A DNA stretch of 64,000 nt from Acidimicrobiaceae bacterium (GTDB lineage: Bacteria; Actinomycetota; Acidimicrobiia; Acidimicrobiales; RAAP-2), in assembly GCA_013044265.1 (NCBI GenBank), contig JABEUQ010000012.1:1-64000 (forward strand), given 5' to 3'. The position numbers and the translations under genes are program-made. Under the pieces are notes generated by a model, which saw nothing but the letters and a program-made list of their open reading frames with translations, was not told the origin of the DNA and made no database searches. Below, in pieces: positions 3,747-64,000 of this stretch (position 1 is its first letter; each line of letters starts with the position of its first letter).

Positions 3747-4760
3747 TCAACGTTGCGCCGAACGCTCGAGAGCGTCGCCGTAGATTCGTGCGAGGTGATC
3801 CCACAGTGCGTTGGCCTCGTCGTCGATTGCTTGGCGCAGAGGGTCGGCGTCGAACCAGCGCACGGTCTGAATAATTCCCTCCGCGAATGGAACCCGCGCG
3901 TGAAAGTCCGGCACAAAGCGCCGCAACTTCGAATTATCGAAAACAGTAGAGTTCGATTTGTCGCCCCAGAGAGTACCCAGCAATTCGGGGTCGGCCGCGA
4001 CGAAAGCATCGGAGGGAACGTGCAGAATATCGGCGTGCACTCCCGCGGCCTCAGCGAGGAGTTCGTAGATCTGGTTCCACGTGAGTGACTCGTCCGACGT
4101 AATGTGAAAGTCCTCGCCGATTGCTCCCGGGTGAGCCAGCAGCGCAATGAGGCCGCGAGCCACATCCGAATTGTGGGTGAGGGTCCAGATGCTGGTGCCA
4201 TCGCCGGGGACGAGGATCTTCGCTCCACGACGCATGCGCTCGACGATGGTAAAAGGTTTTTCCCAACTACCGATCACCACGGGGATCTGTGAGTCGCCGT
4301 AGGTGAGCGAGGGACGAATGACCGTGACGGGAAAGCCCGTCGCCTCGTGCGCGTCAAAGAGGACCTCTTCACAGGCGATCTTGTCGCGCGAATACTGCCA
4401 AAAAGGATTCGCGAGGGGCGTCTCCTCGCTCACCAGCCAGTGTCGCGGCGGCTTCTGATAGGCCGAGGCGGAACTGATGAAGACGTACTGTCCCGCTTCT
4501 GCGTAGAGGCGGATGTCCCGGCGCACTTGTTCGGGGACGTAGGCGGTCCACTGCACGACAGCGTCGAAATGAAGTCCCCTGATGACGTCGTGCACCTGCG
4601 CCTCATTCGAAGCATCGGCGAGAAGCGCACGTGAACCTACCTGGTTGGGTAGACGAGACCGCCCGCGATTCAACGTCCAGACGTCGTGACCCGCGTTGAT
4701 CGCCTCAGTGACACAGGCATTCGAAATGATACCGGTTCCACCGACGAAGAGAATATCCAC
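3747..4760 (-). CDS. NAD-dependent epimerase/dehydratase (SDR family)
   Basis: 337 aa; N-terminal MDILFVGGTGIISNACVTEAINAGHDVWTLNRG Rossmann motif; YSRDKIACEEVL. Confidence 0.88.
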   Translation of the reverse strand: MDILFVGGTGIISNACVTEAINAGHDVWTLNRGRSRLPNQVGSRALLADASNEAQVHDVIRGLHFDAVVQWTAYVPEQVRRDIRLYAEAGQYVFISSASAYQKPPRHWLVSEETPLANPFWQYSRDKIACEEVLFDAHEATGFPVTVIRPSLTYGDSQIPVVIGSWEKPFTIVERMRRGAKILVPGDGTSIWTLTHNSDVARGLIALLAHPGAIGEDFHITSDESLTWNQIYELLAEAAGVHADILHVPSDAFVAADPELLGTLWGDKSNSTVFDNSKLRRFVPDFHARVPFAEGIIQTVRWFDADPLRQAIDDEANALWDHLARIYGDALERSAQR

Positions 4761-4771
4761 TGACGTGTCTC

Positions 4772-6397
4772 CTAGATTCGCTCAGGGACCATTTCTATCG
4801 CGCCGCACGGGCACTCGTGGGCACAGATGCCACAACCCTTGCAGTAGTCGAGATTGAACTCGTACTTTCCGTTATCCAATTTGATGACCGCGTTATCGGG
4901 ACACACCCCAAAGCAGTTGTCGCACTCAAAGCAGTTGCCGCACGACATGCAACGACGGGCCTCGAAGAGAGCGTTGCGCTCAGTGAGCCCCAACACCACC
5001 TCTTCGAAATTATCTTGACGGCGCACCTTTTCGAGTTCGGGGCGCTGGGTGCGCTCGGCGTCGGAATAATACCAGGTGTTCAACAATCCGAACTCCGCCA
5101 ACTCGTGCTTGGCTGGCACCTCGAACGTCACTCCGCGCACGTAGGCATCAATGCTGCGTGCCGCCTTCTTACCGTGACCAACAGCCACAGTTGCGGTACG
5201 TTCAGCTGGGACGGCGTCGCCACCGGCGAAGATCCCTCGTCCGTTGGTCATCAGATTCTCGGCCACTTGTACTGAACCGTCACTCACTTCAATATCGCTC
5301 GCGCGCGCAATCAACGACAGGTCGGTGTCTTGACCGAGCGCCAGCACCACGGCGTCAGCGCCGAGCTCTTCGTACTCCCCCGTCGCTTCGGGGTAACCCT
5401 CGGCGTTGAGACGCATCTTCTCGATGACGATCTTGTCCGACTCCACACGATTGATAGTCGAGAGCCAGCGCATCGTCACACCTTCGACTTTGGCCTGCTC
5501 GTACTCCTCATCGTGCGCGGGCATCTTTTCCTGGTTGCGACGATAGACCACCACCGCCTCTGAGGCCCCGAGTCGCCGTGCGGTACGGGCAGCGTCCATT
5601 GCGGTGTCGCCGCCGCCGTAGATCACGACTCGCCGGCCCAGCAACGGCGGGTTGTCCTCGGCCACTTCGTGCAAGAACGAGACCGCGTCAAGGATCTTGG
5701 CCGAGTCGCCCGCGGGAATGTTCACTCGCTTACCCAACTGAGCGCCGACCGCCAAAAAGATAGCGTCAAAGTGCCCACTCTCTCGTTCCACCTCGATGTC
5801 GTCGACGTTGTAGTTCAACATCACCTCAACGTCCATCGCGATCACGCGCGCAATCTCCGCGTCCAGCACCGCGCGCGGCAATCGGTAGGCCGGGATGCCG
5901 TAGCGCATCATGCCGCCCAGCTGGGCCGAGGAGTCGACCAGTCGCACCTGGTGGCCCTGACGTCGCAGATGGTACGTGGCCGAGAGGCCCGCCGGTCCCG
6001 CACCCACCACCAAGACCCGCTTTCCAGAGTCGGGACCCGCGTCGGGGAGACGAAGTCCGTGTTCGAGGGCGTAATCACCGAGGAATCGCTCAACGGCGTT
6101 GATGCCCACGGCTTCATCGACTTGCACCCGGTTGCAGGCTCTCTCACAGGGGTGAAAGCAGATACGGCCCATGATGGCTGGCAGGGGGTTCTCCTCCACC
6201 AGTTTGCGCCACGCACCTTCGTAGTTTCCCGATTCGGCCTCGTAGAGCCAGCCTTGAATATTCTCGCCCGCCGGGCACGCGTTGTTGCACGGTGGCAAAC
6301 GGTCCACGTAGGTCGGTCGCTCGACGCGCCACGAACCAGTGTGATTCAACAAACTCGAACCAACATCGAGAGTGATGGCGAAAGGTCTCTTGTTCAT
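4772..6397 (-). CDS. GltD-like FAD/NAD(P) oxidoreductase with C-terminal 2x[4Fe-4S] ferredoxin domain
   Basis: 541 aa; [17 protein letters not shown]...[59 protein letters not shown]-terminal [24 protein letters not shown]...[19 protein letters not shown]. Confidence 0.92.
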
Positions 6398-7434
6398 GCC
6401 GATGCCTCCGACGAGGATACGTGACGCGCAATGGGTTCCGCATCTTGTTCGAGCAGTCCGTAGCGTTCGATATTACGATTAGCGATCTCTTGGAGATGAG
6501 CCACGATGTCGGGACGTGGATTCTTGCCAAAGAGGTGTGCGAAACGCTTCTGGAGCTTCAAATACTCTTCGACGGGCGCCTGACGGCGGATCTTGGAGAC
6601 CGACGTCACTACCCCGTACTCCGCCTCAAAGACCGGGAACATTCCGGTCTCCTTGGCTAAACGTGCCACATGAATGGTTTCGTTCGACGCTGATCCCCAA
6701 CCTAGAGGGCAGGGCACGAGCACGTGCAGGTAGCGCGCACCACGAAACTGCATGGCCCGCTCAACTTTCGCCTCGAGGTCGTGTAGATCCGCGACGGTAG
6801 CGGTGGCGACGTAGGCAACGTCGTGCGCCATGGCGATTCGTGGTACGTCCTTGCCTTGACCAAAGGTATTGCCCGGTTGGGGGCCCACAACGTCAGTGGT
6901 CGCGGTACGCGCCGCTGGCGGCGTTGCGCCGGAGCGTTGCACACCGGTGTTCATGTAGCCCTCGTTGTCATAACAGATATAGAGCACGTCATCATTGCGT
7001 TCGAACATCCCCGACAGACAGCCAAAGCCGATATCAACGGTTCCACCGTCGCCACCCTGGCTCACGACACGTACGTCCGAGCGTCCCTTCACCCGCAATG
7101 CCGCGGCCACTCCCGTCGCGACCGCGGGGGCGTTGCCAAAGAGTGAATGCAACCACGGGATACGCCACGATGTCTCGGGGTAGGGCGTTGAGAAGACCTC
7201 GAGGCAGCCAGTAGCGTTCACGGCCACCAACTGGTTGTTCGTCGCGCGCATCGCCGCATCGAGCGCGTAGCGCGCACCGAGCGCCTCACCACACCCCTGA
7301 CAGGCACGGTGTCCCGAGTCAATCGAATTGGCTCGATTGGGATCTGACTGTACGGTACGTTCATCATCACTGAGGAGTCGGTTGCCTACCGCGAAGGAAC
7401 CCACTTGGTAGAAGCGCACCGGTCGCTTGGTCAT
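6394..7434 (-). CDS. porB: 2-oxoacid (pyruvate):ferredoxin oxidoreductase beta subunit
   Basis: 346 aa; [69 protein letters not shown]-binding region. Confidence 0.92.
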
Positions 7435-8690
7435 GACAGCGCCCCCTCTCCTCGTGTCGTACCGAGGTCACGCAACACGTTCTCCGCTGATGGACCCGAG
7501 CGCCGGGTCGCCTTCATGCGCTCGACCTCGCGCTCGACCACGTCGAGGTCGAGGTCGAGGAATAACAACGAGTCGAGCTCGCCACGAGTGGCCTTGTAAA
7601 AGAGCTTGTCCAGGGACTGGCGCGTGATGGGTCGTCCTCCGAGGCCCGCGACGACTTCACGAATCTTGCAGTTCGTCCCTTGCAGAGCCATCGCGACGTC
7701 GGTCGCGAGCACTCCCCCGTGTCCAATGGAAAAGGCCTTCTCCAGGACCACGATCTGCGACGCGTGGGCGAGAGCCTCGTGTACCGCTTGCGAGGGGAAG
7801 GGACGAAACGAGGTGATGCCCACGACACCAATCTTCTCACCGGCGTCGCGACGCACATCGACGGCGTCCTTGATGGTGCCGAGCACCGAACCCATGGCCA
7901 CCACAATCGTCTCGGCATCCTCGGCGCGGTACGAGCGCACGAGGCCCCCACTGCGGCGCCCGGTGGCGGCATAGAAGTCTTCAGCGATGGCCGGAATACG
8001 GTGCAGCGCATCGAGTTGGCGCAGGTGCGCCAGGTAGCGCACCTCCTGGAACGCTTCGGGGCCGACCATTGCGCCAATCGAAACTGGGTTCTCCGGGTCG
8101 AGTACTTGGCGTGGTTCGTAGGGGGGCAAGAATGCGTCGACGATGGACTGCTCGAGAAGGTCCACGCCCTCCACGGCGTGAGTCAGGATGAATCCGTCCA
8201 CGCAGACCATCACCGGTACCGAGAGTTCCTCGGCGAGGCGAAAGGCCTGAACGTGCAGGTCCGCCGCCTCTTGGTTGGTCTCGGCGAAAATTTGGATCCA
8301 ACCCGAGTCACGAACAGCCATGGCGTCAGAGTGATCGTTCCAGATATTGATCGGCGCACCGATCGCTCGATTGGCTAGTGTCATCACGATCGGCAGGCCG
8401 AGGCCGGCCGCGTTGTAGACCGCCTCCATCATGTAGAGCAGACCCTGGCTGGCCGTCGCGGTGTAGGCGCGTGCGCCGGTGGCCGATGCGCCGATCGCGA
8501 CCGACATCGCCGCGAACTCACTCTCCACATTGATGAATTCACATCGTGACAGTCGCCCCTCCTTGACCATCACACCCACCGCCTCGATGATGTGGGTCTG
8601 GGGCGAGATTGGGTAGGCGCACACGACTTCAGGACGACAAAGTGCCACGGTCTCGGCGACGGCGCGCGAACCCTCAATTTGTCGCAGCAT
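7431..8690 (-). CDS. porA: 2-oxoacid (pyruvate):ferredoxin oxidoreductase alpha subunit
   Basis: Start placed at MLRQIEGSRAVAETVALCRPEVVCAYPISPQTHIIE (ORF listed to 8771); TATASQGLLYMMEAVYNAAGLGLPIV; 4-nt overlap with porB. Confidence 0.92.
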   Translation of the reverse strand: MLRQIEGSRAVAETVALCRPEVVCAYPISPQTHIIEAVGVMVKEGRLSRCEFINVESEFAAMSVAIGASATGARAYTATASQGLLYMMEAVYNAAGLGLPIVMTLANRAIGAPINIWNDHSDAMAVRDSGWIQIFAETNQEAADLHVQAFRLAEELSVPVMVCVDGFILTHAVEGVDLLEQSIVDAFLPPYEPRQVLDPENPVSIGAMVGPEAFQEVRYLAHLRQLDALHRIPAIAEDFYAATGRRSGGLVRSYRAEDAETIVVAMGSVLGTIKDAVDVRRDAGEKIGVVGITSFRPFPSQAVHEALAHASQIVVLEKAFSIGHGGVLATDVAMALQGTNCKIREVVAGLGGRPITRQSLDKLFYKATRGELDSLLFLDLDLDVVEREVERMKATRRSGPSAENVLRDLGTTRGEGALS

Positions 8691-9264
8691 GGTTAGATCC
8701 CTTGGTAGTTTTCTCAATGACATCGAAGGCTGCTGCAGCTGCCGTAGCGTTACGCTCACCCACGACGCCAACGAAATGGTCGCGAATGGCCTTTTGCACC
8801 GCCGAAAGGGTGATCTCCCCCGTCAACGACGCGAACGCCCCGAGGAGCGCGGCATTGGGTAACGGGCGCTGGAAGTGCTCGAGGGCAATCTCGGTGGCGG
8901 GGCACGTCGCGAGGTGCGAAGGTACGAAGCGCGAATACAGGTCATCGAGTCCCAATTCTTCGAAACTACGCGACGTATTGATGAGGATGAAACCCACGGG
9001 AGAGAGTCCCGAGAAGAGGTCGACCTGGTTAATCAGGGTGACGTCTTGGACGATGACAGCGTCGGGCACCATGACGGGTTCGCGCGTACGAATCTCCTTA
9101 TCGTCAATCCGGCAATACGAGACCACGGGCGCACCCGTTCGCTCCGAGCCGAAACTAGGGAAGGCTTGGGCTCGTCGACCTTCGTCGAAGGCCGCCATCG
9201 AAAGAATCTCCGCCGCCGTCACTACTCCTTGACCTCCGCGACCATGAATCCTTACTTGGAACAT
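8674..9264 (-). CDS. porG: 2-oxoacid:ferredoxin oxidoreductase gamma subunit
   Basis: 196 aa; MFQVRIHGRGGQGVVTAAEILSMAAFDEGRRAQAFPSFGSERTGAPVVSYCRID is the classic gamma-subunit N-terminus. Confidence 0.92.
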   Translation of the reverse strand: MFQVRIHGRGGQGVVTAAEILSMAAFDEGRRAQAFPSFGSERTGAPVVSYCRIDDKEIRTREPVMVPDAVIVQDVTLINQVDLFSGLSPVGFILINTSRSFEELGLDDLYSRFVPSHLATCPATEIALEHFQRPLPNAALLGAFASLTGEITLSAVQKAIRDHFVGVVGERNATAAAAAFDVIEKTTKGSNHAATN

Positions 9265-11328: not shown

Positions 11329-13482
11329 CTAGGAGTGCGAACGGTAGATGCGCTCGGTGTAGTCCTCGAGCATTCGTGCCGAGGAATACATCGGGGCGAG
11401 GCTACGAAGTGAGGCTCGAATGCGAGTCAGCCACACCACGGGGACTCCGTTGGAGTCGCGCGCGAAGAACATGGGCTTGACTTCCTTCTCGAGTAGGTCG
11501 TAGAGGGCTACGGCATCGCGCTCGTCTTGGTCGTTGGGATTATCAAGGGTGGTGCCGTCAATCGCCCACCCGTTCTGACCGTTGTACCCCTCGCTCCACC
11601 AACCGTCGAGCACGCTCAAATTCAGTCCACCGTTCATGGCGGCCTTCATACCGCTGGTCCCACTGGCTTCCATTGGCGGACGCGGCAGGTTGAGCCAGAC
11701 GTCACAACCAGACACCAGTGAAGGGGCCACGCGCATGTCGTAGTCCTCGAGGAAAATCACCCGGTTGGGCAGGTCCATCGAACGCTGCACGCTGAACATG
11801 TTCTTGGCCACAGTCTTGGCCTCATTATCGAGCGGGTGGGCCTTGCCCGCGATGATGAACTGCGCACCCTGTTCGTGATCCACGATGTCGCGCAGACGAT
11901 TGACGTCGCGAAAGAGCAGATCGAGTCGCTTGTAGGTGGCGAGGCGACGGGCGAAACCAATCGTCAAATTGGTCGGATCAAATGCCTCGAGACCCGAGAC
12001 CGCGAGGTCCACGTCTTCGCCACGTGCCAAACGGTCCACCACGATGCGGTCACGAATCATCTCGACGAGCGCGAGTCGCATCTTGCACCGCGCATTCCAC
12101 AAGTCGATGTCGGAAATTTCGTCGACGTGACTCCACATCGCCGGATCATTGGCGTGACGTTCCCAGTCGTGACCCAATACCGTCGAGAGTAGGTGACGCA
12201 TCGTTGGATTCATCCACGTCGGCAGATGCACGCCATTGGTGACGTAGGTGATTGGCACGTCGGACTCGGACTGACCAGGAAACAGCGGATTCCACATGCC
12301 GCGCGCAACCTCACCGTGACGTCGCGAGACTGCGTTGGTCGATCGAGAACACTTAATTGCTAACGGTGAAAAGCCCATGGGCTCACTCGTGGAGTCCTCC
12401 TCGATACGCGTCAGCGCGCCAAGTTCGTCACGCGCAATACCCATCTCGTCAATCGAGTGGCCCAGCACGCGAAAGAATTCGTCCGAAGAGTAGGTCTCGT
12501 TGCCCGCGGGCACCGGGGTATGGGTGGTGAAGGCGAAGCGGTCGCGCCCCTCCGCCAACAGGGTCTTGAGAGTCGGGCGATTGCCCGCGAGCTCCGAGGC
12601 CGTCTGTGACGCGATTTCGAGCGAAGCGAGGGCGGGGTGCCCCTCGTTCATATGAAAGAGACCCGGTCGAATCCCCATGGCGTCGAGCGCCCGCACGCCG
12701 CCAATGCCCAGCAACGCGTATTGCGCGAGACGAATATCGTGGCTCCCTTCGTAGAGACGCGAGGTGACCCAGCGCTCGAGTGGAGTGTTCTCTTGCAGCT
12801 CAGTATCGAGGAGGAACAACGTGGTTCGTCCCACGTTGACCCGCCACACCTGCGCCGACAGCTCAGAGTCCCACACGGGGACTTTGACCTTGATCGGCTG
12901 GTCGTCGCCACCACGCACGCGCACGATGGGTAGCTGTCCGGTGTTCGCCTCAATCCAGTATTCGTGCTGCCAGCCCGAGAGGTCCATGCGCTGGTGAAGA
13001 TAACCACGCCGGTACAACAACCCGACCCCCACGACGTCAAGCGCTTGGTCCGAAGTCTCCTTGAGGTAGTCACCGGCCAACACGCCGAGCCCACCCGAAT
13101 ACACCGGCAGTGACTGGTGTACGGCAAATTCGGCACAGAAGAACGCTACGGGTCCCGTCGGCAGCACCCGCGTGGTGGGACGTGCCAAATCTTCCTCCAT
13201 GCGTTGGGCCACCTGGTGAAGAAGCTCGAGGTAGCCCTGGTCGGTCGCCGTACGCAGCAAATCGCGCTCGGGAAGGTTCAACAAGAAGCGCACCGGATTT
13301 TCCCCCGCTAACAGGAACCGGTGAGAATCAATCGAGGTGAACAGCTCAACACCGCCGGGCGTCCAACTCCACAAGTAGTTATACGAAATCCACGCGAGGT
13401 CTTCGAGTGGTTCTGGAAGGCGGCGAGCCAGTCGGTCGACAGCGCGACGAAGGTCGCGCGTCCCATCAAAACGCTTTGTCAT
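11329..13482 (-). CDS. glgP: Alpha-glucan (glycogen/maltodextrin) phosphorylase, paralogue 1
   Basis: 717 aa; DUF3417-like N-terminus, SGGLGVLAGDYLKETSDQAL, HMNEGHPAL, PLP motif EASGTSGMKAAMNGGLNLSVLDGWW. Confidence 0.93.
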   Translation of the reverse strand: MTKRFDGTRDLRRAVDRLARRLPEPLEDLAWISYNYLWSWTPGGVELFTSIDSHRFLLAGENPVRFLLNLPERDLLRTATDQGYLELLHQVAQRMEEDLARPTTRVLPTGPVAFFCAEFAVHQSLPVYSGGLGVLAGDYLKETSDQALDVVGVGLLYRRGYLHQRMDLSGWQHEYWIEANTGQLPIVRVRGGDDQPIKVKVPVWDSELSAQVWRVNVGRTTLFLLDTELQENTPLERWVTSRLYEGSHDIRLAQYALLGIGGVRALDAMGIRPGLFHMNEGHPALASLEIASQTASELAGNRPTLKTLLAEGRDRFAFTTHTPVPAGNETYSSDEFFRVLGHSIDEMGIARDELGALTRIEEDSTSEPMGFSPLAIKCSRSTNAVSRRHGEVARGMWNPLFPGQSESDVPITYVTNGVHLPTWMNPTMRHLLSTVLGHDWERHANDPAMWSHVDEISDIDLWNARCKMRLALVEMIRDRIVVDRLARGEDVDLAVSGLEAFDPTNLTIGFARRLATYKRLDLLFRDVNRLRDIVDHEQGAQFIIAGKAHPLDNEAKTVAKNMFSVQRSMDLPNRVIFLEDYDMRVAPSLVSGCDVWLNLPRPPMEASGTSGMKAAMNGGLNLSVLDGWWSEGYNGQNGWAIDGTTLDNPNDQDERDAVALYDLLEKEVKPMFFARDSNGVPVVWLTRIRASLRSLAPMYSSARMLEDYTERIYRSHS

Positions 13483-13492
13483 TCAAGAGAAT

Positions 13493-15526
13493 CTAGTGGG
13501 TCACTTCGACGTTCTTAGAGAGATTGAATGTATCTTGCAGCCCCATAGCGAGTACGAGGGGCTCCAGCGCCACACGATCGACGTCGCCGTGATCATGCGC
13601 GACAATCGCCCACAACGCCCGACGAATCGCGGCCTCTCCCACCGGAGTGACGAAACGCGGGGCCGCGGCCAAGGCCAGCAAGGTGACCTCGTCGTCGTGC
13701 GTCGACCTACGATGTAGCAGGTCAGAGGCTAAAAGACTTAGAGTGCCCTCCACGTCGCTCGAACGTTTTCCCATCATCCGTGCCACGGCGACGCGTGAGA
13801 TCACGTCGGCGCCGAGGCGCTCAAGGTCCACGCGACGCCACATGGTGTTGTCCGAGATATCGACGAAAAGCGCAGAATTATCCCCGAGAGTCGTATGAGT
13901 CAGGAATGTGAATTTTCGCAACGTGAGGGTGTTGGTGAGGGTGATGCGCACCTCAGCGCTTTCGCCGGGCTGGTAGTGAATACTCCACGTCCCGCGCGTA
14001 GTACGTGCGAAATCTCCGCAGGATGCGAACTCCGCCGCGGCGCCCGCCGCGATTTGAACTTCGTCGGTACGAAAACCGTCGCACGCCCGCTGCCACAATT
14101 GCTCGCCCGAGATGTCGTAGTGAGCCGAGCGTACCGCCGCCAGACGTTGAACGAAGGGGGTCTCGAAGTCGCGTCCCGTCGTTCGCCGGGTGAGTTCTAG
14201 GGCGAGAGCCGCGTAGCGCAGGACGATACTCGTCTCAATCTCCGCGGGGTCGGCGAAGAACCACGCGCAACTCGTGAAGGAATACATGAGATTGCGATGA
14301 GCTTCGCAGACCTCGAGAACTCGACTGCGCTCGTCGTGGTTGAGTTCTCGGTTCTGGTGGCGCCCCAAGAAATCTTGTGCTGACCATTCACCCGCGATGA
14401 CCTTGCCGTAGTCGAGCACAGCGGCGTCGCTGGATTGCACGTGGTGACCTAGTTCCCAGTCGAGGGCGGAGCCCGCGTGCTCCCTTAGCCAATCGAGCGC
14501 GTCACGTAGTGGCGCACGCCACTTCAGGTCGAAGCCCGCTCGTTCACCAGTCACGCAACCACACGCGCTACGCCAACGTTCGACGCCGTGCGCACAACTC
14601 CACGCGGAAACGTCGTGCAGCTGAACCTCGTGGGTGGGTATTCGTCCACTCAGCCACTCGCCCAACGTCGTCGAGATCTGATACTTCTCCTGGAGTCGAC
14701 GCGTCGCCCACGCCACACCGATATCGCCGAAACGATGGTGGTGCCCGTAGGTCTCACCGTCGGCGACGATGAGTACGACGCCATCATCTTCCCCCAGCGC
14801 CGCGATCATCGTGTCGGCCAACTTGTTCCCATCGGCCACCAGGTCACCGAAAGCGATGCTCTGAGAGAGGTCGTGGTGACCAAAAACCACGGTAATTCGT
14901 GCGCCGCTGGGCAACGAGACGAAGTAGGCCTTCGAAGTATCGAGGGTGTCCGCCCCGACCTTCACCCACTTCTCGCCCGGTGCACGCGTCATGGCGGCCT
15001 GGGTCGGCATCAAGACGGTATAGGTAATACCCTGGCGCGCCAGGACCTCGAGTGTGGCGAGATCGACACCGGTCTCGGGCAACCACATGCCGACCGGCTC
15101 TTCACCGTAGCGTGAGCGAAAGTCATCAATACCCCAGGCGACCAAGCGCTCCTGGTCGGTTGGCGTGGCTAGGGGGACGATGGCGTGTACCAGTGGCGCC
15201 GCCACCACGACCCGATGAGCGCCGCGACTCGACGCACGCATCTCGCGCTGGAGGGCAGTCTCGACGTCGGGTGCGTATTTCGCGAGCCAGTGGTGCAACG
15301 TGGGTCCGAGGTCGAAGCTGCTCTGGGTCAGGGGCTCAAAAAGTGATGTCGTAGCGTCCTCGTTCTCCAACGCGACCGCGACCATGGCGCGATAACACTC
15401 CGCAGCGATGCGCTCGTTCCAGTCGTGATACGGCCACGCACTCCATTCGTGGTTGAACAGTCCCGTCCAAGGGTCTTCACGCGGAGGTTGGTAGAAGTGG
15501 TAGTGGAAGCCAGCGATCGGAGACAT
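13493..15526 (-). CDS. GH57-type glycoside hydrolase / DUF3536 protein
   Basis: 677 aa; FHYHFYQPPREDPWTG, GMWLPETGVDLATLEVLARQGITYTVLMPTQA, IVADGETYGHHHRFGD. Confidence 0.85.
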   Translation of the reverse strand: MSPIAGFHYHFYQPPREDPWTGLFNHEWSAWPYHDWNERIAAECYRAMVAVALENEDATTSLFEPLTQSSFDLGPTLHHWLAKYAPDVETALQREMRASSRGAHRVVVAAPLVHAIVPLATPTDQERLVAWGIDDFRSRYGEEPVGMWLPETGVDLATLEVLARQGITYTVLMPTQAAMTRAPGEKWVKVGADTLDTSKAYFVSLPSGARITVVFGHHDLSQSIAFGDLVADGNKLADTMIAALGEDDGVVLIVADGETYGHHHRFGDIGVAWATRRLQEKYQISTTLGEWLSGRIPTHEVQLHDVSAWSCAHGVERWRSACGCVTGERAGFDLKWRAPLRDALDWLREHAGSALDWELGHHVQSSDAAVLDYGKVIAGEWSAQDFLGRHQNRELNHDERSRVLEVCEAHRNLMYSFTSCAWFFADPAEIETSIVLRYAALALELTRRTTGRDFETPFVQRLAAVRSAHYDISGEQLWQRACDGFRTDEVQIAAGAAAEFASCGDFARTTRGTWSIHYQPGESAEVRITLTNTLTLRKFTFLTHTTLGDNSALFVDISDNTMWRRVDLERLGADVISRVAVARMMGKRSSDVEGTLSLLASDLLHRRSTHDDEVTLLALAAAPRFVTPVGEAAIRRALWAIVAHDHGDVDRVALEPLVLAMGLQDTFNLSKNVEVTH

Positions 15527-18500
15527 CTAATTCTTTCGTTGCAGGACGACGAATGACAAGGGTGGAAGTGACATGCGAACTACAGTTTCCTCGGGCTCAG
15601 CGCCCGGTGTCGCCCCGCGCAGGTTGGTCGGATAGCCGCTGCCGCCGTACTCGGGGTCGTCAGAGTTGGCGAGCACCATCCACGAGCTCGACGACGACAC
15701 CGGAATCTGATACTCATCGCGCGGCACCGGCGTGAAATTGGCCACCATCACCAACTCCTCGTTTCCCTCACCACGCCGCCAAATCAGGATGCTCTGTTCG
15801 GCGTCATCACAACTGAGCCAACTGAAGTCCTGGCCCCCGGAGTCATCGAGGTGCAGCGAAACCTCTGAGCGGTAGAGCTCGTTACAGCGTTGGGTCCAGC
15901 GTCGTACCCCCTCGTGTGCCGGGAAGTCACGTAGGTGCCAGTCCAGGCTCTTCTCATGATCCCACTCCGAGCGCTGGGCGAACTCCGCGCCCATAAAGAG
16001 CAACTTCTTACCCGGGAGCCCGAACTGGTAGCCCAGCAGCAAGCGCAGATTGGCAAATTCTTGCCACGCGTCACCAGCCATCTTGGACAACAGCGAACCC
16101 TTGCCGTGCACGACCTCGTCGTGACTCAGTGGCAACATGAAACGTTCGTGGCCGGCGTAGATCGCGCGAAAGGTCAATTCGTTCTGGTGATACTTGCGAT
16201 GGATGGCATCGCGCGAGAGGTAGTCGAGCGTGTCGTGCATCCAGCCCATGTCCCACTTGAAGGTGAAGCCCAGCCCCCCATCGCTAGTGACCTGGGTCAC
16301 CCGCGGCCACGAGGTCGACTCCTCGGCGACCATGAGCGCCCCGGGAAACGCGGAGGTCACCGCGTCGTTGCATTGACGCAAGAAGGAGATGGCGTCGAGA
16401 TCCTCGCGCCCCCCGAAACGATTGGGCACCCACTGCCCCGGGCCGCGGCTGTAATCGAGGTAGAGCATGCTCGCCACCGCGTCCACTCGCAGACCATCCA
16501 CGTGGTATTCCTCGAGCCAGAAACACGCGCTCGAGATAAGAAAACTCCGCACTTCGTTGCGGCTGTAGTTAAAGGTCCAGCTCTGCCAATCCGGATGCAC
16601 CCGTTGGCGCACGTCAGCGTGCTCGTACAGGTGCGTTCCGTCAAAGAGACCTAGAGCGTGCGCGTCGGAGGGGAAGTGCGAGGGAACCCAGTCGAGGAGG
16701 ACGCCCACGTCGTGCGCGTGTAGTTCGTCAACGAGATACTTGAAATCGTCGGGGGTGCCGTTGCGCGAAGTGGGAGCGAAATAGCCCGTCGTCTGATAGC
16801 CCCAAGATCCGTAGAACGGGTGTTCCATGACTGGCAGGAACTGCACGTGCGTGAAACCCATCTCCACGCAATAGGCCGGCAATTGTTCGGCCATCTCGCG
16901 GTAGCTCAGTGCACGGTTACCCTCTTCGGGAACGCGTCGCCACGAACCCAAATGCACTTCGTAGACCGACACCGGACGATTTCGTGCGACGTAGTCCTGA
17001 CGTCGTCCCAGCCACTGCTCGTCGCGCCATTCGTAGTGTGAACTCCAAATTTTGCTGGCGGTGTTCGAGGGCACTTCGAAGAGTCGCCCGACCGGGTCGG
17101 CCTTATCCACCTCACCCCCGCCGAGGCGTGAGCGGATGCGGTATTTATACGCCTGTCCCGCCACGGCCCCGGGTACGAAACCTTCCCAGATTCCCGAGTT
17201 CTCCCGTGGCAGTAGGGCGTGAGGTCCTGCGTCCCACTCGTTGAAATCACCCACGACCGCGACGCGTTCGGCGTTGGGAGCCCACACCGCGAAGTAACAA
17301 CCCTCCACGCCATCAGCGATCATTGGATGGCAACCGAGGTGGTGGTGCAAACGGAAATGGCGCCCCTCATTGAACAGGTGCAGGTCCTCCGAGGAGAACC
17401 GCGTCACGTCCGATACCCCCGGCATGCCGTGACCGCCCGCGGCGAAACCGCGTCGTTCCCGTAGGGGCGTCAAGGTCTCGGCCAGAACGCGTGTCGAGGC
17501 CATCTCCTCGAGGCTGAGCGGCGTCTGCTGACTCCAGTTCGGTCGCTCATCAAACGTGCCGGGCAGGTTGACACCGACGGGGACTTTGAGCAAGTCCTCG
17601 ATCTGCACCATGACCAAACCCGCTGGGGAGTCGGCGAGGGACGCGTGGACCGCGTCGAGTACGTGCTCGGGTTGGACGTTGACACCGAGTCCGAGTACGC
17701 GCACCAAACGCTCACGGTCGTCGCGTCGATTTTCTCGCGCACGTACGGCGCCATCCTCACTGAGGTGCCCCACCGCCACGCGCTCATCAATATCACCCTC
17801 ACTCCACCAACCGAGGAACGTGGCCGTATCGTGGGTGCCGAAGGACGCCACCGCCCCCACCGGTACCGGTTCGAGTGCGTCGTGGCCGATCGCGAACTGG
17901 GCCACGTACGTGCGGCGAAGTCCCTCGTGAGCCATAGCGTCGCGCAGGTCCCCGTCGACGGTGCCCAGGTCCTCGCCCACCACGTCACAGCCGAATCTCA
18001 AGGCTTCGATGGCCACGATGGCGAGTAGTTCTTGGAAGGGCATCTTCACGTAAAGTCCATCGCGAGCACTCGCACCATCGGGAACCCAGAAGAGCCGTTG
18101 TAGCCCCATCACGTGGTCAATACGCACCACGCCGGCCACTCGCATATGACAGCGCAGCGCATCGCGAAACTGCTGATGAGCACCCTCGCGGATTCGCGCG
18201 GGGTGCAGTGGTGGGGCGCCCCAGGTCTGGCCATCGGTCGTGAGATCGTCGGCCGGGGCCCCCAGGGACATCGAGGATACGTATTCGCTCGGGTTCTTCC
18301 ACACGTCGTAACCGTCGGGGTGCACACCAATGGGAATGTCGAGTTGCAACGTCTGACCACGTTGGGCGAGACGTTGCGCGAGCTCGGTCATTTGCCCGTC
18401 GATTATCCATTGGGCGAAGAGGTGATAGCGCACCAGGGTCGGGTCGACGTCATTCCAGCGCAGCAGTCCTGATTTCGCGGTCGAGGGCCACTCGCGGAAA

Positions 18501-19531
18501 TTGCGACCGAAGCGCTCGCTCGCTGCGCGAAAGCGCGCGTAATCATTCACTTCAGGGTGTTCAGTCACGTACGAACGCAGTCCACTCTCGTAGAGAGCCA
18601 TGAACTCCGTCTGGGTCGCGGCCCAGGCCTGGATCACCTGACGCTTCGCCGCGAAGGCGGCTGCTCCGTCGACGTGACCACCCTTGGACCACGTGGCGCG
18701 ATGCGCGAGTGAATACGTGTCGTTCATCAACTGCTGGGCCGCGAAGGAGTGCGACAAGAACTCCACCTGGTCCAGCGCAATCCAGCGATCGTTCCAAAAA
18801 CGCCGACTCACCGGTCGATACGGACTCGCCTCGAAATCGTAGGGACCAAAGGACGAGAGCAGCGGCAACGTGGAGACCACCGTGGCACCCTGGTTCGCCA
18901 CCAGGCGCGCGAACTCATCGAGGTCCTCGACGTCGCCGGCACCCCAGGAGCGCTGCGAGTGCAGAGAGAAGATCGGTGCCTGTACCGAAAAGGCTCGCCA
19001 GTCTCGGCTGAATCGGTGTGGCGCGCCGCGCAGGGGTCGCACGATCAGTGTGGACCAGAAGATACGCTTGCCCACGATGACGCACAGTTGGTGGTAGCCC
19101 ACCCTCATCGCCGGCAGTGGCAGAGCCCACGCGCGCGGCTCCTGCGGCGCGGTCTCGAGCATCGAGAGTTCGTCGGTGCGCATCTGCCACGAGGATTCGC
19201 CACCGAACTCGAACTCGATGCGACACTCGAAGCTCACGAGTCTGCGTGCCATACGCAACGCCACCACCGCGTTCACTCCTTCGTCGATCACGTACACGGG
19301 TTCGAGCACCCGTTCCACGCGCTCCTGGTTGTAGCGTCGCAGAGCGCTGCGCGCACCCGCGGGCGAGACGAGGGTCTCCATGTCACCGAGTGCGTTGAGC
19401 ACCGTCAAGAGTGACTCAACGCTGGCGCGACGCTCCTGACCTCGTCCGTCGACGTAGTGCGTCTCGACCCCGCGTGCATGGGCCAGGTCCAGCAACGATG
19501 GAGGAATCGGGGTGTCGCTCACAGTGACCAC
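15527..19531 (-). CDS. Bifunctional 4-alpha-glucanotransferase (N-terminal MalQ) / 1,4-alpha-glucan branching enzyme (C-terminal GlgB) fusion
   Basis: Continuous 1334-aa ORF. MalQ half: VVRIDHVMGLQRLFWVPDG, CDVVGEDLGTVDGDLRDAM, ASFGTHDTATFLGWW. GlgB half: CBM48-like YFAVWAPNAERVAVVGDFNEWD, GLRVDAVASMLYLDYSR, MVAEESTSWPRVTQ, LPLSHDEVVHGKGSLL. Confidence 0.93.
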   Translation of the reverse strand: MVTVSDTPIPPSLLDLAHARGVETHYVDGRGQERRASVESLLTVLNALGDMETLVSPAGARSALRRYNQERVERVLEPVYVIDEGVNAVVALRMARRLVSFECRIEFEFGGESSWQMRTDELSMLETAPQEPRAWALPLPAMRVGYHQLCVIVGKRIFWSTLIVRPLRGAPHRFSRDWRAFSVQAPIFSLHSQRSWGAGDVEDLDEFARLVANQGATVVSTLPLLSSFGPYDFEASPYRPVSRRFWNDRWIALDQVEFLSHSFAAQQLMNDTYSLAHRATWSKGGHVDGAAAFAAKRQVIQAWAATQTEFMALYESGLRSYVTEHPEVNDYARFRAASERFGRNFREWPSTAKSGLLRWNDVDPTLVRYHLFAQWIIDGQMTELAQRLAQRGQTLQLDIPIGVHPDGYDVWKNPSEYVSSMSLGAPADDLTTDGQTWGAPPLHPARIREGAHQQFRDALRCHMRVAGVVRIDHVMGLQRLFWVPDGASARDGLYVKMPFQELLAIVAIEALRFGCDVVGEDLGTVDGDLRDAMAHEGLRRTYVAQFAIGHDALEPVPVGAVASFGTHDTATFLGWWSEGDIDERVAVGHLSEDGAVRARENRRDDRERLVRVLGLGVNVQPEHVLDAVHASLADSPAGLVMVQIEDLLKVPVGVNLPGTFDERPNWSQQTPLSLEEMASTRVLAETLTPLRERRGFAAGGHGMPGVSDVTRFSSEDLHLFNEGRHFRLHHHLGCHPMIADGVEGCYFAVWAPNAERVAVVGDFNEWDAGPHALLPRENSGIWEGFVPGAVAGQAYKYRIRSRLGGGEVDKADPVGRLFEVPSNTASKIWSSHYEWRDEQWLGRRQDYVARNRPVSVYEVHLGSWRRVPEEGNRALSYREMAEQLPAYCVEMGFTHVQFLPVMEHPFYGSWGYQTTGYFAPTSRNGTPDDFKYLVDELHAHDVGVLLDWVPSHFPSDAHALGLFDGTHLYEHADVRQRVHPDWQSWTFNYSRNEVRSFLISSACFWLEEYHVDGLRVDAVASMLYLDYSRGPGQWVPNRFGGREDLDAISFLRQCNDAVTSAFPGALMVAEESTSWPRVTQVTSDGGLGFTFKWDMGWMHDTLDYLSRDAIHRKYHQNELTFRAIYAGHERFMLPLSHDEVVHGKGSLLSKMAGDAWQEFANLRLLLGYQFGLPGKKLLFMGAEFAQRSEWDHEKSLDWHLRDFPAHEGVRRWTQRCNELYRSEVSLHLDDSGGQDFSWLSCDDAEQSILIWRRGEGNEELVMVANFTPVPRDEYQIPVSSSSSWMVLANSDDPEYGGSGYPTNLRGATPGAEPEETVVRMSLPPLSFVVLQRKN

Positions 19532-22134
19532 GTCATCATTCCCGGCAGAATTTCACCGTCGGTATAGAGGGGCGAAGGCACGATGCGCGCGGCCAGCTTG
19601 ACATCCTCGGGGTACGAAGCGAGGTCCACCCGAGCGTCGTAGCGCGCGCGCGGACCGAAGCGGTCCACCAGTTTGGCGTCAATACTGAAGGGGGCGACCC
19701 CGTCATCCACCCAGAGTTGCACGCTCAGGTCCGCGGGCTCGAGCACGCCAAGTTCGACCTGGAGGTACACACGATGACCCTTCTTGCGTTGCGATACGGC
19801 ACCAATCTCAACACTCAATTCATCCCACCCGGTGCGCAAGCGACGCATATCTCGGGCCCGGTCGCGAGCCGATCGCGCACCGCCGGCGCGCAACTGCGCG
19901 GACTTGGCCATACCGGGCAAGTAGTAGGACTCGGCGTAGTCACGCGTCATGCGTAACGAATCCCACGTGGGTGCCAAAGTAGACATCGACTGTTTGACCG
20001 AGGCCAACCACCGAGTAGGAACGCCATGCTCGTCACGCTCATAGAAGCGAGGAACGATCTCGTTCTCCAAGACTTCATAGATGGAAGCAGCGTCGAACTC
20101 GTCTTGGAGGGCCTCATCCACGTAATCGAGATCAGTGCCGATGGAGAAACCAATCGGCGCCGCCGACGGATCAGCATCTTGAGTGGCCTCATCCCACCAG
20201 CCATCGATGGTCGAGAAGCTCAACGCCCCATTCATACCAGCCTTCATGCCCCCCACTCCACAGGCCTCGAGCGGGCGGCGCGGCGTGTTGAGCCAGAGGT
20301 CCGCACCCTGGGCCAGGTGGCGGTCGAGCGTCGTGTCGAAATCCACGATGAAGACGATGCGGTCACTGACGTCGTACTTCGCGGCGAACTCGATCATGTC
20401 CTGCAGCAGTTGCTTACCCCCCTCGTCGTTGGGGTGGGCCTTACCCGCGAAGACGATCTGCACGCCCCGCCCCGGGGACTTCAGAATCCGCGCGAGACGC
20501 TCAGGGTCGCGCAAGAGCAACGTCGGTCGCTTATAGGCCACGAAGCGGCCGATGAAGCCAATGGTGAGTCGGTCCGGGTCTAATACCGATATCGCGGCGA
20601 CTCGCTCCGAGGGACTGTGGCGCCGCGCCAGATCCTTACGCGCGCGCCGACGGGCGAACTCGACCAAGTCCGCGCGCGCCTCGTTCTTGACCCGCCACAG
20701 GTCGGCGTCGGGTGCATCGAGGATCTTGGACCACATCACCGGGTCACCGGGCGTGGTCTGCCACTGCGCACCCACCGACTCGGTCAATAGTTCGCTAAAG
20801 GGGCCCGTGGTCCACGATTCCAGGTGCACGCCATTAGTGATGTGCCCGACTGGGATCTCTTGAAAGGGGACCCGGGGCCAGAGCATGGACCACTGTTGGC
20901 GCGTGACCCGTCCGTGGAGTCGAGACACGCCGTTGCGATGTCCGACCATGCGCATGGCGAAGACCGTCGGGCAGAACGAGTCACCGTCCCACTCCGGCGT
21001 GACCCGCCCCAGGGCCACGAGGGAATCCAGTGACGTGGCGAGTTGGCGCGCGTAGGGGGCGAGGAAGCGACGTGCCACGGCGTCGGGGAAATAGTCATGA
21101 CCAGCGGCCACCGGGGTGTGCGTGGTGAAGAGCAAACCCGGACGCACGGCCAATTGCGCTTCTTCGAAACTCAACCCCTCTTGAGCCATAATCCGGCGGA
21201 TGCGCTCGAGGATCGCGAATACCGAGTGGCCCTCGTTCAGGTGCAACATCGAGGGCTCGATGCTGAGCGCCGCGAGGGCCCGCACGCCACCAATTCCGAG
21301 GATGAGCTCCTGGGAGAGGCGTGTCTCGATGTCCGAGTCGTAGAGACGCGTGGTCAGGATCCGATCAATCTCGGAATTCGTCGAGACTGCGCTATCGAGC
21401 AAGATGAGTTGGTTACGACCCACTTGGGCGCGATAGACCGCGACTTGAACATCGCGACCGGGTAGGGACACCGTGACTTGAATGAGACGGCCCTGCGCGT
21501 CGCGAGCGCGCTCAATGGGCATCTTCGCCGGCGACATCATGTCCCAGGCTTCGTGTTGACGACCTTCGCGGTCGAGCCACTGGTGCGACGTACCGCGATA
21601 GAGGAGACCAACTCCCACTAGCGGCAGTCCCAAGGCACTCGCGGCCTTGAGCTGCTCGGCCGCCACGGTGCCCAAACCGCCGGCAAAGATCGGCAGCGAG
21701 TCCGTGAGTGAGAATTCCGCCGCGAAAAACGCGATCACTTGATCCTTCTCGTTCTTATGGTGCGTGTGGTACCACGTCTTGCTCGTCTGAGTGAAGTAAC
21801 TCCGAAAGTTCTGCACGACGGAGTGGGCCAACTTGGCGACCTCGGGATCGGCCTGGATACGCTCGTTGACCTGGTCACGGCCGAGCCCGAGCAAGAGTTG
21901 CTGGGGCCACTCGAGGGCCCCGGGGCTCGCCGTCGGGTCGAGCGCCGCGAAGAGGCGGCGCGCATCGATCTTCCAGGTCCAGCGCAAATTAGTCGCGACC
22001 TCGAGCAGATCCTCGTACGTTGCGACGGCCGGAACCGTCGTCACGACTGACCCACTCTCCGACACGACGACCTCCTCGCACCTCTCGAGCGCGGCACTGA
22101 ACCGCGCGGGAGACCCCTCTAGGATTCGTAGCAT
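19519..22134 (-). CDS. glgP: Alpha-glucan phosphorylase, paralogue 2
   Basis: Start placed at MLRILEGSPARFSAALERCEE (ORF listed to 22191); FAGGLGTVAAEQLKAASALGLPL, HLNEGHSVFAILERIRR, PLP-region PLEACGVGGMKAGMNGALSFSTIDGWWDEA. Confidence 0.9.
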   Translation of the reverse strand: MLRILEGSPARFSAALERCEEVVVSESGSVVTTVPAVATYEDLLEVATNLRWTWKIDARRLFAALDPTASPGALEWPQQLLLGLGRDQVNERIQADPEVAKLAHSVVQNFRSYFTQTSKTWYHTHHKNEKDQVIAFFAAEFSLTDSLPIFAGGLGTVAAEQLKAASALGLPLVGVGLLYRGTSHQWLDREGRQHEAWDMMSPAKMPIERARDAQGRLIQVTVSLPGRDVQVAVYRAQVGRNQLILLDSAVSTNSEIDRILTTRLYDSDIETRLSQELILGIGGVRALAALSIEPSMLHLNEGHSVFAILERIRRIMAQEGLSFEEAQLAVRPGLLFTTHTPVAAGHDYFPDAVARRFLAPYARQLATSLDSLVALGRVTPEWDGDSFCPTVFAMRMVGHRNGVSRLHGRVTRQQWSMLWPRVPFQEIPVGHITNGVHLESWTTGPFSELLTESVGAQWQTTPGDPVMWSKILDAPDADLWRVKNEARADLVEFARRRARKDLARRHSPSERVAAISVLDPDRLTIGFIGRFVAYKRPTLLLRDPERLARILKSPGRGVQIVFAGKAHPNDEGGKQLLQDMIEFAAKYDVSDRIVFIVDFDTTLDRHLAQGADLWLNTPRRPLEACGVGGMKAGMNGALSFSTIDGWWDEATQDADPSAAPIGFSIGTDLDYVDEALQDEFDAASIYEVLENEIVPRFYERDEHGVPTRWLASVKQSMSTLAPTWDSLRMTRDYAESYYLPGMAKSAQLRAGGARSARDRARDMRRLRTGWDELSVEIGAVSQRKKGHRVYLQVELGVLEPADLSVQLWVDDGVAPFSIDAKLVDRFGPRARYDARVDLASYPEDVKLAARIVPSPLYTDGEILPGMMTWSL

Positions 22135-22520
22135 AACCTCGCAAATTAAGACTGAGGTGAAAGCATCTGTCTGCGTGAGAGTGAGAGTCAAGGGATTCGT
22201 TTCCTGATGTCCAACAACTCACGACACGGCGAGTTCCGCGCCACGGGCGCGTGCGTGCTCGGGCCACTTCTCACTGCAGGGAATTCACCTCGGCGTCTGG
22301 CTCGCGCTGCCCATGAGATCGATGTAGTTCTATCAGCCACTCACCGTGGCCCCGGATCGCGACGTGCTCATCGTGAGCGCGTCACCGCACTCCTCACCCG
22401 CGACACGCTCGAGCGCGTGGGCCAATTTCCTTCGTTGTGGGGGTCTCTCGCTATTCTTGACCAGTTCAGTCGGGAATCACCATTACAGTGTGGTACGTCC
22501 CCCAAAATCTAAGGACCAAC

Positions 22521-23456
22521 ATGACAAACATCGCGAACAACATCACTGAACTCATCGGCGGAACTCCCCTCGTTCGGATCAATCACCTCAACGCCGGACT
22601 CGGCGTGGAGATCCTGGCCAAATTGGAATTCTTCAATCCCGCCGGATCCGTGAAAGACCGCATTGGACTCGCCATGATCACCGCCGCTGAGGAGGCTGGC
22701 CTCATCGGCCCCGACACCATTATCTTGGAACCCACCTCGGGCAATACTGGCATCGCACTCGCGATGGTGGCCGCCGCTAAGGGCTATAAGTGCGCTTTCA
22801 CCATGCCCGAATCGATGAGCAAGGAGCGTCGCGCCCTGCTGCGTGGTTACGGTGCGGAGTTGTTCCTGACCCCCGGTCCCGACGGCATGGGTGGCGCGAT
22901 CGCCAAGGCGAACGAACTCGCCGCCAGCGACTCGCGCTACTTCATCCCCCAACAGTTCGAGAACCCGGCCAATCCCCAAGTGCATCGCGTCACCACCGCG
23001 GAGGAGATTTGGAACGACACCGATGGTGGTGTCGACATCTTCATCGCCGGCGTGGGCACCGGTGGCACCATCACCGGAGTCGGCGAGGTCTTGAAGCAGC
23101 GTAAGCCTTCGGTGCAGGTCATCGCCGTGGAGCCCGCCGCCTCACCGATCCTCGAGGGTGGCCCCAAGGGACCACACCCGTTGCAGGGTATCGGCGCGGG
23201 ATTCATTCCAGACACCTTGAACACTCACGTCTACGACGAGGTCATCGGCGTCGATAACCAAGACGCCTTCGATACAGCACACCGTGCCGCGCACGAAGAA
23301 GGCTTGCTCGTCGGTATCTCTTCGGGCGCCGCGCTCTTCGCGGCTCTGCAAGTGGCGCGCCGCCCCGAGAACGCTGGCAAGCAGATTGTGGTCATCATCC
23401 CCTCCTTCGGCGAACGATATCTCTCCACGCCGCTCTTCGAGGGTCTCACCGACTAG
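22521..23456 (+). CDS. cysK: Cysteine synthase
   Basis: [80 protein letters not shown]. Confidence 0.96.
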
Positions 23457-24160
23457 TGCTCGCAACACTACGTAGCGACCTGGCGGCCGTGCGCTCACGT
23501 GATCCAGCCGCGCGCGGGGTACTGGAAACAGCACTCATCTACCCGGGACTGCATGCCCTGTGGGCCCATCGTGTCGCGCACCGGCTCTGGGGAATGGATC
23601 TCAAATTCTTCGCCCGTTGGCTCTCCTCGGCGTCTCGCTCGCTTACTGGAGTCGACATCCACCCGGCTGCCCAGTTAGGACAACGAGTCTTCATCGACCA
23701 CGCCCAGGGCGTGGTGATTGGTGAGACCGCGGTGGTGGGTGACGACGTGACCATATATCAGGGGGTGACCCTGGGTGGCACCAGTCTGGCGCACGAGAAG
23801 CGTCATCCAACCATTGGCAACCGAGTTGTCATCGGTGCCGGCGCCAAGATCCTCGGCGCCATTACCATCGGCGACGACAGCCGAGTAGGGGCCAACGCCG
23901 TCGTGCTGCATCCGGTTCCCCACAATTCTGTCGTCGTCGGCATCCCCGGACGCGTCATCTCGCGCACGCGAACCTCCGCCACGAGCACCGACTCCCCGTT
24001 CTCCGAGGGGGAACTCGCTTCGGACCCGGTGGGACTCAGTCTCGAATCGCTCTTCGAGCGACTCCACGAACTCGAAGCGCGCGTCGGGTCTCACGGTCGT
24101 TCCCACGAGATTCGACCATCACACTCGGGCATCTGGTCCGGCGACGATTTCTCTATTTGA
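23456..24160 (+). CDS. cysE: Serine O-acetyltransferase
   Basis: GTG start overlapping the cysK stop by 1 nt; [45 protein letters not shown] left-handed beta-helix hexapeptides. Confidence 0.95.
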
Positions 24161-62533: not shown

Positions 62534-64000
62534 TCAGTTGAGACTAAGTGTTTGACTCGCCACGAGATTGGCGGAGTTCGTCGCCACACTGATCTGATAC
62601 GGATTACTCGACACCACCAGGGCGTGGCCGTTGTCGTAGGTGAAGGCGCTGCGCGGCACGTAGATCACGATGTCCTTGTAGGCCCCCGGGGCTAAGTCCA
62701 CCCGACCAATTCCTTTGAGTTGCTCGGGTGGTTCGCCCAGACCACCGGGGTAGGCCACGTACACCTGGGCCACGTCCACTCCAGCGACCTTGCCGGTGTT
62801 GGTGATGCGCAGCGCCACGCTCACGCCCGAGCCCGATCGCGAGATCGAGATGTTCGACCACGAAAAGTTCGTATAGCTCAGCCCGTAGCCAAAGGGGTAG
62901 GCCGGGGTCACCGAATTGGCCTGGTACCAGCGATAGCCAATATCACTGAGTCCGCCGAACTTGACGGTACCGCCTTGACCGGGGAACTGACTCGGCGAAG
63001 CGGCCGGAGTCTGCCAGGCGAGTGCCGGCATACTCACCGGCAGTCGACCCGACGGGTCAACGGCGCCGGTGAGCACTTGAGCAATAGCTGGGCCCACCAT
63101 TTGGCCGCCGTACCAGGCCTCGACGATCCCCGCGACCTTCGAGCGCCAGGGCATCAACACGGGACCTCCCGTCGTCAGCACCACCACCGTGCGCGGATTC
63201 ACCTTGGCCACTGCACTGATGAGAGCGTTGAGGTCACCCTGGAGCCACAACGAGGGAAGGTCCGCACCCTCCGTCAAAAGATTGCCCGCGTAGATAACGG
63301 CCGTGTGCGCCTTCTTCGCGGCCGCCACGGCCGCGTTGATGAGCGACTGGACGTAGTCAATACCGAAACCCGGCGTGTTCGAAGCCCCGAGGGCGAACCA
63401 TTGGGCCATCACGGTATAACTCTGACCCGCCACGAGGGTGACCGAGGTGGACTGGAAGTAGGCGCCGTGCAGCCCACGGTCCGCGAGAATCGTGTGGCCA
63501 TTGAGCGAGAGCCAGGTGTCGCCGTAGTCCGTCAGACCGAGCACGTAGGTGCCCGACTTCTCGGCTCTGAAGGTGACGTCCCAGTTGCTCCAACCCGCGC
63601 CGTGTCCTGGTGTGGTGGCGGTCAGCGCGGCGGGCGTGACGGCCTTGGCGTACGCGAGGGCGACGTCGCCGGACCCGGGAACCGTGTGCAGGGACGCGGG
63701 GATCTCTCCCGGCGGGGGCGTACCCGCAACGACGTCAACACTCTTCAAGGGATTGAACTCCAACCCACTGAGCCCCCCGGGGCTGTATGTCACTTGGGCG
63801 CGGGGTAGCAACTTTCCCAAGGCGGCCAGGGGAGTTTGTAGAAAGGACGCGTGCACTGCCGAACTACCACCACCGCGCGAAATGATCCCCTCTCGCGCGT
63901 CGACGCCGATCACCGCCACCGAGGAGGTGCGGGGCAGTGGCAGCACCTGGTTCGTATTCTTCAACAACACGATGCCCTGACGCTCCGCGCGCAAGGCCAC
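62534..64000 (-). CDS. Glycoside hydrolase family 3 (beta-glucosidase-like), C-terminal part, truncated by window edge
   Basis: ALRAERQGIVLLKNTNQVLPLPRTSSVAVIGVDA GH3-C start; PA14-like insert WDVTFRAEKSGTYVLGLTDYGDTWLSLNG; FGYGLSYTNFSWSN and C-terminal FnIII-like domain. Confidence 0.92.
   Translation of the reverse strand: MALRAERQGIVLLKNTNQVLPLPRTSSVAVIGVDAREGIISRGGGSSAVHASFLQTPLAALGKLLPRAQVTYSPGGLSGLEFNPLKSVDVVAGTPPPGEIPASLHTVPGSGDVALAYAKAVTPAALTATTPGHGAGWSNWDVTFRAEKSGTYVLGLTDYGDTWLSLNGHTILADRGLHGAYFQSTSVTLVAGQSYTVMAQWFALGASNTPGFGIDYVQSLINAAVAAAKKAHTAVIYAGNLLTEGADLPSLWLQGDLNALISAVAKVNPRTVVVLTTGGPVLMPWRSKVAGIVEAWYGGQMVGPAIAQVLTGAVDPSGRLPVSMPALAWQTPAASPSQFPGQGGTVKFGGLSDIGYRWYQANSVTPAYPFGYGLSYTNFSWSNISISRSGSGVSVALRITNTGKVAGVDVAQVYVAYPGGLGEPPEQLKGIGRVDLAPGAYKDIVIYVPRSAFTYDNGHALVVSSNPYQISVATNSANLVASQTLSLN

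Follow-up and report, generated by a model that had tools for sequence, protein, structure and literature searches.

A single-frame fusion of the 4-alpha-glucanotransferase MalQ and the branching enzyme GlgB in a phosphorylase operon of an Acidimicrobiaceae bacterium

The 64,000-nucleotide stretch analyzed here (the window; positions 1 to 64,000 of contig JABEUQ010000012.1, assembly GCA_013044265.1, of an Acidimicrobiaceae bacterium) contains on its minus strand a single gene in which the 4-alpha-glucanotransferase (amylomaltase) MalQ of family GH77 is followed, in one uninterrupted frame, by the glycogen branching enzyme GlgB. The gene and its parts are:

15527..19531, minus strand: MalQ::GlgB fusion gene, a single uninterrupted open reading frame (ORF) from GTG 19531, 1334 amino acids (aa)
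17525..18976, minus strand: GH77 4-alpha-glucanotransferase domain, aa 186-669, with D472/E520/D568 (Pfam and alignment)
17405..17440, minus strand: interdomain linker, about aa 698-709, FAAGGHGMPGVSD region, variable in relatives and of low model confidence
15530..17386, minus strand: GlgB module comprising CBM48, GH13 and Alpha-amylase_C, about aa 716-1334, with D1017/E1070/D1138 and the N1 domain absent (Pfam/NCBIfam)

The Pfam domains of the fusion protein follow each other in the order MalQ_N (76-166), GH77 (186-669), CBM48 (732-814), GH13 (from 887) and Alpha-amylase_C (1238-1332). The GH77 domain PF02446 scored 303 bits against a cut-off of 25. The N-terminal half matched the NCBIfam malQ model TIGR00217 (251 bits, cut-off 205.65), and the C-terminal half matched the GlgB models PRK05402 (898 bits, cut-off 741) and TIGR01515 (806 bits, cut-off 464). 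The ORF call, Pfam and NCBIfam results bear out the single-ORF fusion of MalQ and GlgB proposed in a preliminary description of this DNA, and the Pfam search returned the module order given there, GH77 and then CBM48 with GH13. Its coordinates and ORF likewise stand, although it names neither a strand nor a likely start and does not mention the operon. The protein more likely starts at GTG 19522, giving 1331 aa, because this codon and the stop of the phosphorylase gene upstream overlap by 4 nt (GTGA) and because in a relative (L033) the fusion gene opens with ATG at the homologous 4-nt overlap. The GlgB half is classed as a predicted N2-only branching enzyme (types taken from PMC6339891), since its module starts at CBM48.

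The catalytic residues D472, E520 and D568 of the MalQ half are invariant in 51 aligned sequences (25 fused and 26 unfused), and D1017, E1070 and D1138 of the GlgB half in 71 sequences (25 fused, 26 unfused and 20 further GlgB). Arginine and histidine residues neighboring both D/E/D triads are likewise invariant in the same alignments. No residue loss was seen in either half, as expected from the earlier observation that the motifs of both looked intact. The nearest solved structures are MalQ enzymes for the N-terminal half and GlgB enzymes for the C-terminal half. In the window's genome (G000) the fusion is the only GH77 gene and the sole site matching the fusion protein.

The junction, singled out for verification in the preliminary description, contains no stop codon (positions 17480-17300), and the frame is also open in 19 genomes of the genus. 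Linker sequence and length vary between species. The short Gly-rich linker described earlier is confined to the window and its closest relatives, whereas in other fusions 8-76 residues of unrelated sequence separate the aligned halves. The predicted model (aa 140-1334) shows folded modules and a low-confidence linker, with a predicted template modelling score (pTM) of 0.53. For these reasons the halves are more probably joined by a flexible tether than rigidly, and fixed packing of the two is not predicted. A GTG codon in the linker (GAC GTG ACG) was considered as an internal start for free GlgB and rejected, because it is not conserved, being GTC, GTA or GCG in several relatives.

Within the genus, GlgB exceeded the cut-off in just 26 of 100 genomes, all of which have MalQ; many genomes lack the system altogether. 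The fusion lineage accounts for 24 of these 26 genomes, of which 19 have both enzymes, GH77 and branching, in a single open frame and 5 are broken at contig ends; the remaining two have an unfused GlgE-type malQ/glgB pair. Since the malQ and glgB genes of many relatives share an overlap of about 4 nt, one indel could fuse them, and an assembly or frameshift error could in principle have joined two adjacent genes. The fused frame is, however, open in 19 genomes of the genus that were assembled independently, as well as in distant Legionella isolates, which excludes assembly error and chance and leaves such an artefact a negligible probability. In one genus member, G382, GlgE was matched twice and malQ/glgB sets occur more than once, spread over different contigs (C46 and C53; L113), possibly reflecting a mixed metagenome-assembled genome (MAG) or a real duplication.

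The fusion gene is the second of four tightly spaced genes forming an operon in the order GT35 phosphorylase, MalQ::GlgB, GH57/DUF3536 and second GT35. Its partners are:

19519..22191, minus strand: GT35 alpha-glucan phosphorylase with DUF3417, first operon gene, ORF of 890 aa with an uncertain true start (Pfam/NCBIfam, synteny)
13493..15526, minus strand: GH57 protein with DUF3536, its ATG directly after the fusion stop codon (Pfam)
11329..13482, minus strand: second GT35 alpha-glucan phosphorylase with DUF3417, 717 aa (Pfam/NCBIfam, synteny)

This order is kept across the genus, in named loci whose MAGs come from unrelated projects on peat, fen, bog and other environments. In the genus, each complete operon examined has the fusion between two divergent GT35 paralogues, which share about 36% identity in relatives. 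Promoter and terminator scans gave no excess over shuffled sequences. The operon is more informative than the fusion itself.

The GH57 neighbor contains E151 and D256, invariant in 29 homologues. Besides DUF3536 it has, by comparison of its motifs with PMC11206854, an ETYGHH motif in conserved sequence region (CSR) IV and no fingerprint of glycogen branching enzymes. The Pontibacter DUF3536 GH57 enzyme (PoGH57), with the same ETYGHH motif, has 4-alpha-glucanotransferase/hydrolase activity and acts alongside a GH13_9 branching enzyme, whose branches it shortens (PMC11206854). No relative of the neighbor was found among the PDB sequences, and its predicted model (mean predicted local distance difference test score, pLDDT, 87) gave modest template modelling (TM) scores to GH57 amylases, amylopullulanases, glucanotransferases and branching enzymes alike, so that the fold does not decide its specificity.

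GlgE was sought in 22 entries of the fusion lineage, which represent at least 18 distinct genomes because the same genome is sometimes entered more than once. It was found in none of the 22, and the GlgE pathway was not recognized in the lineage. In 10 of its genomes nothing exceeded the cut-offs for GlgC and GlgM/glgA_Coryne. For the GT5 synthase GlgA the lineage gave weak, partial matches alone, to GT4 proteins of 405-408 aa, the best-scoring of which, read by eye, we take to resemble MshA and not a synthase. The classical pathway, defined as GlgC plus GT5 GlgA in one genome, was not detected. No known glycogen synthase was recognized in the lineage, no GT3 search having been made. Other genomes with the fusion keep GlgE or GlgA: G453, G455, G457 and G185 have GT5 GlgA, and G454 has both. 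Because the genomes of the lineage form one clade, their pattern represents one evolutionary observation. A literature search on Acidimicrobiaceae glycogen and on Legionella GlgE found nothing.

The window's genome has one other GH13 gene alone, partial at a contig edge. Its counterpart in relatives encodes about 500-510 aa and matched several GH13 glucosidase-type models below their cut-offs. No GlgX, TreS, TreY or TreZ was thus seen in this genome, whose sole other GH13 is this partial gene. The truncated gene adjoins a LacI-type regulator (L139, G000:C215), and the two possibly form an alpha-glucoside regulon.

The most probable explanation, to which we assign a probability of about 0.6, is that the fusion encodes a bifunctional enzyme whose tethered elongation and branching activities would turn maltodextrins into a branched store, with trimming by the phosphorylases and the GH57 protein. 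The N-terminal amylomaltase, linked by the flexible tether to the C-terminal GlgB, would join short maltodextrins into chains long enough for branching, and the tethered GlgB would transfer segments onto 6-positions, yielding the branched store. The GH57 enzyme could trim or redistribute outer alpha-1,4 chains, and the phosphorylases would release glucose-1-phosphate or, less likely, extend chains when glucose-1-phosphate is abundant. Both activities are predicted from sequence, as are channelling along the tether and net glucan synthesis out of maltodextrins, and the coupling of disproportionation with branching suggested in the preliminary description remains a reasonable proposal. In Escherichia coli, MalQ supplies glycogen with chains independently of GlgA (Park 2011, cited in PMC10395257). 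A role of maltodextrins is supported by the Vibrionaceae, in which phosphorylase-malQ-glgB genes adjoin malT and maltose transporter genes.

Several points weigh against the bifunctional-enzyme explanation. The genomes are MAGs and incomplete (G000 90%), and the lineage may contain a GT3 or novel GT4 synthase. The genes adjacent to the operon include no identified maltodextrin transporter, which leaves the primer supply unproven. The tether may have no kinetic effect, and the enzyme activities and the glucan polymer are themselves predicted. A wider claim, that the genus makes branched storage glucan without a dedicated synthase through a self-contained operon, with the fused enzyme elongating and branching in one particle, appears doubtful.

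It is possible, if rather unlikely, that the operon serves remodelling and recycling: an unrecognized GT4 or GT3 synthase would make the glucan, the operon would reshape or degrade it, and the fusion would be a convenience of co-expression. GT4 proteins have been proposed as archaeal glycogen synthases (PMC11046441). Low-scoring glgA_Coryne matches (about 100-124 bits; cut-off 302) were obtained for several GT4 proteins of the lineage, and every enzyme of the operon also fits degradation. However, none of these GT4 genes adjoins the operon in the loci examined, and the best-scoring one is the 405-408-aa protein that presumably resembles MshA. Synthesis driven by phosphorylase, in which one GT35 runs in the synthetic direction while MalQ::GlgB supplies primers and branches, seems improbable. 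It would be consistent with the divergent GT35 pair flanking the fusion in every complete operon examined and with the canonical synthase not being found, but cellular phosphate normally drives phosphorylase toward breakdown, and the sequences give no direction.

The architecture of glycogen is usually put down to a synthase and a branching enzyme acting as separate proteins. With a naturally tethered elongation and branching enzyme in genomes that lack a recognizable synthase, glycogen formation without a synthase could be tested simply, and the recurrence of malQ-glgB fusions suggests selection for coupling. The newer point is the position of the fusion between two phosphorylases in genomes without a recognized glycogen synthase. 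MalQ::GlgB could also be a ready tool for starch modification.

Among other loci of the window, an overlapping pair of cysK and cysE (22488-24160, plus strand) is divergent from the phosphorylase/fusion operon. On the minus strand at 3747-8771, genes for an epimerase, an FAD/4Fe-4S oxidoreductase and TPP-binding and POR_N/PFOR_II subunits adjoin, forming a 2-oxoacid:ferredoxin oxidoreductase cluster. A GH3 beta-glucosidase-type protein is encoded at 62534-64000 (minus strand) and runs past the window edge. Outside the window, a gene pair recurs at two loci (L115, 13255-15407; L153, 743-2829), consisting of a GT4 glycosyltransferase-like gene and, after it, a methyltransferase-like gene; in L115 the pair lies beside malQ-glgB.

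The MalQ::GlgB architecture is already known: a fusion with MalQ N-terminal and the branching enzyme C-terminal was described in Neisseria sicca in a 2024 Chem Rev review (PMC11046441), and unannotated fusions of the same order occur in Legionella and several other phyla, so the novelty implied by the preliminary description falls away. Its proviso that many characterized fusions of this order might exist holds in part: such fusions are described, but a literature search gave no enzymatic characterization or study of them. Within the family, fused ORFs were found in G355 and G356, which belong to a second genus, and in a further Acidimicrobiaceae MAG (L042). In the class (Acidimicrobiia) they were found in G004 and, truncated by a contig end, in G185, and beyond it in Legionella gresilensis, L. 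saoudiensis and Legionella sp. They also occur in an uncultured proteobacterium, a Calditrichaeota (Calditrichota) MAG, one unclassified bacterium and a Myxococcales (Myxococcota) MAG, where the ORF is cut at its 5' end. Single tblastn pieces suggested fusions in Photobacterium sp. GJ3 and Salinivibrio kushneri; the ORFs are separate in both.

In most other Acidimicrobiales malQ and glgB are two neighboring genes that often share a 4-nt ATGA/GTGA overlap, and one small insertion or deletion ahead of such an overlap would fuse them. Phylogenetic analysis, performed as quick tree searches without bootstraps on sequences that did not include Neisseria, rejected a single clade for all sampled fusions in the MalQ half (p-AU 0.0065, approximately unbiased test) and did not reject it in the GlgB half (p 0.669). 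A common origin of all sampled fusions is thus rejected on the MalQ half only, and more than one fusion event is likely but not certain. Both trees group the Acidimicrobiaceae fusions in a single clade.

The Neisseria sicca fusion resembles that of the window in having MalQ at the N terminus, GlgB at the C terminus and a glycogen phosphorylase in the neighborhood (PMC11046441). The Neisseria neighborhood, however, includes GlgX and amylosucrase, whereas the window operon has GH57 and a second GT35. The Legionella fusions (L045, L047 and L051; 1260-1326 aa) carry the five Pfam domains of the window protein in the same order, with GH57 downstream, although their MalQ half is 27-30% identical to that of the window. 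In the Legionella operon L045, TreS::Mak lies upstream and TreZ, GH57 and TreY downstream, and no GT35 adjoins, in contrast to the two GT35 genes of the window operon. The Legionella fusion genomes also have GlgE, which was not found in the window's lineage.

Unfused malQ-glgB pairs of Acidimicrobiales share the gene order and families of the window and often the 4-nt overlap, but encode separate proteins. GlgE is present in 16 of the 19 such genomes tested, and TreS::Mak precedes malQ in L113. On secondary replicons of the Vibrionaceae Salinivibrio and Photobacterium (L159, L160) the order phosphorylase-malQ-glgB is like that of the window, with three separate proteins; in Salinivibrio a MalT-type regulator and the maltose ABC transporter genes malK, malE and malF lie beside it. 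Bifunctional GlgX/MalQ proteins (PRK14510) also combine MalQ with a GH13 glycogen enzyme. The window protein scores 307 of 2511 bits against this model, far below the cut-off, and the partner of MalQ is a debranching enzyme in PRK14510 proteins and a branching enzyme in the window.

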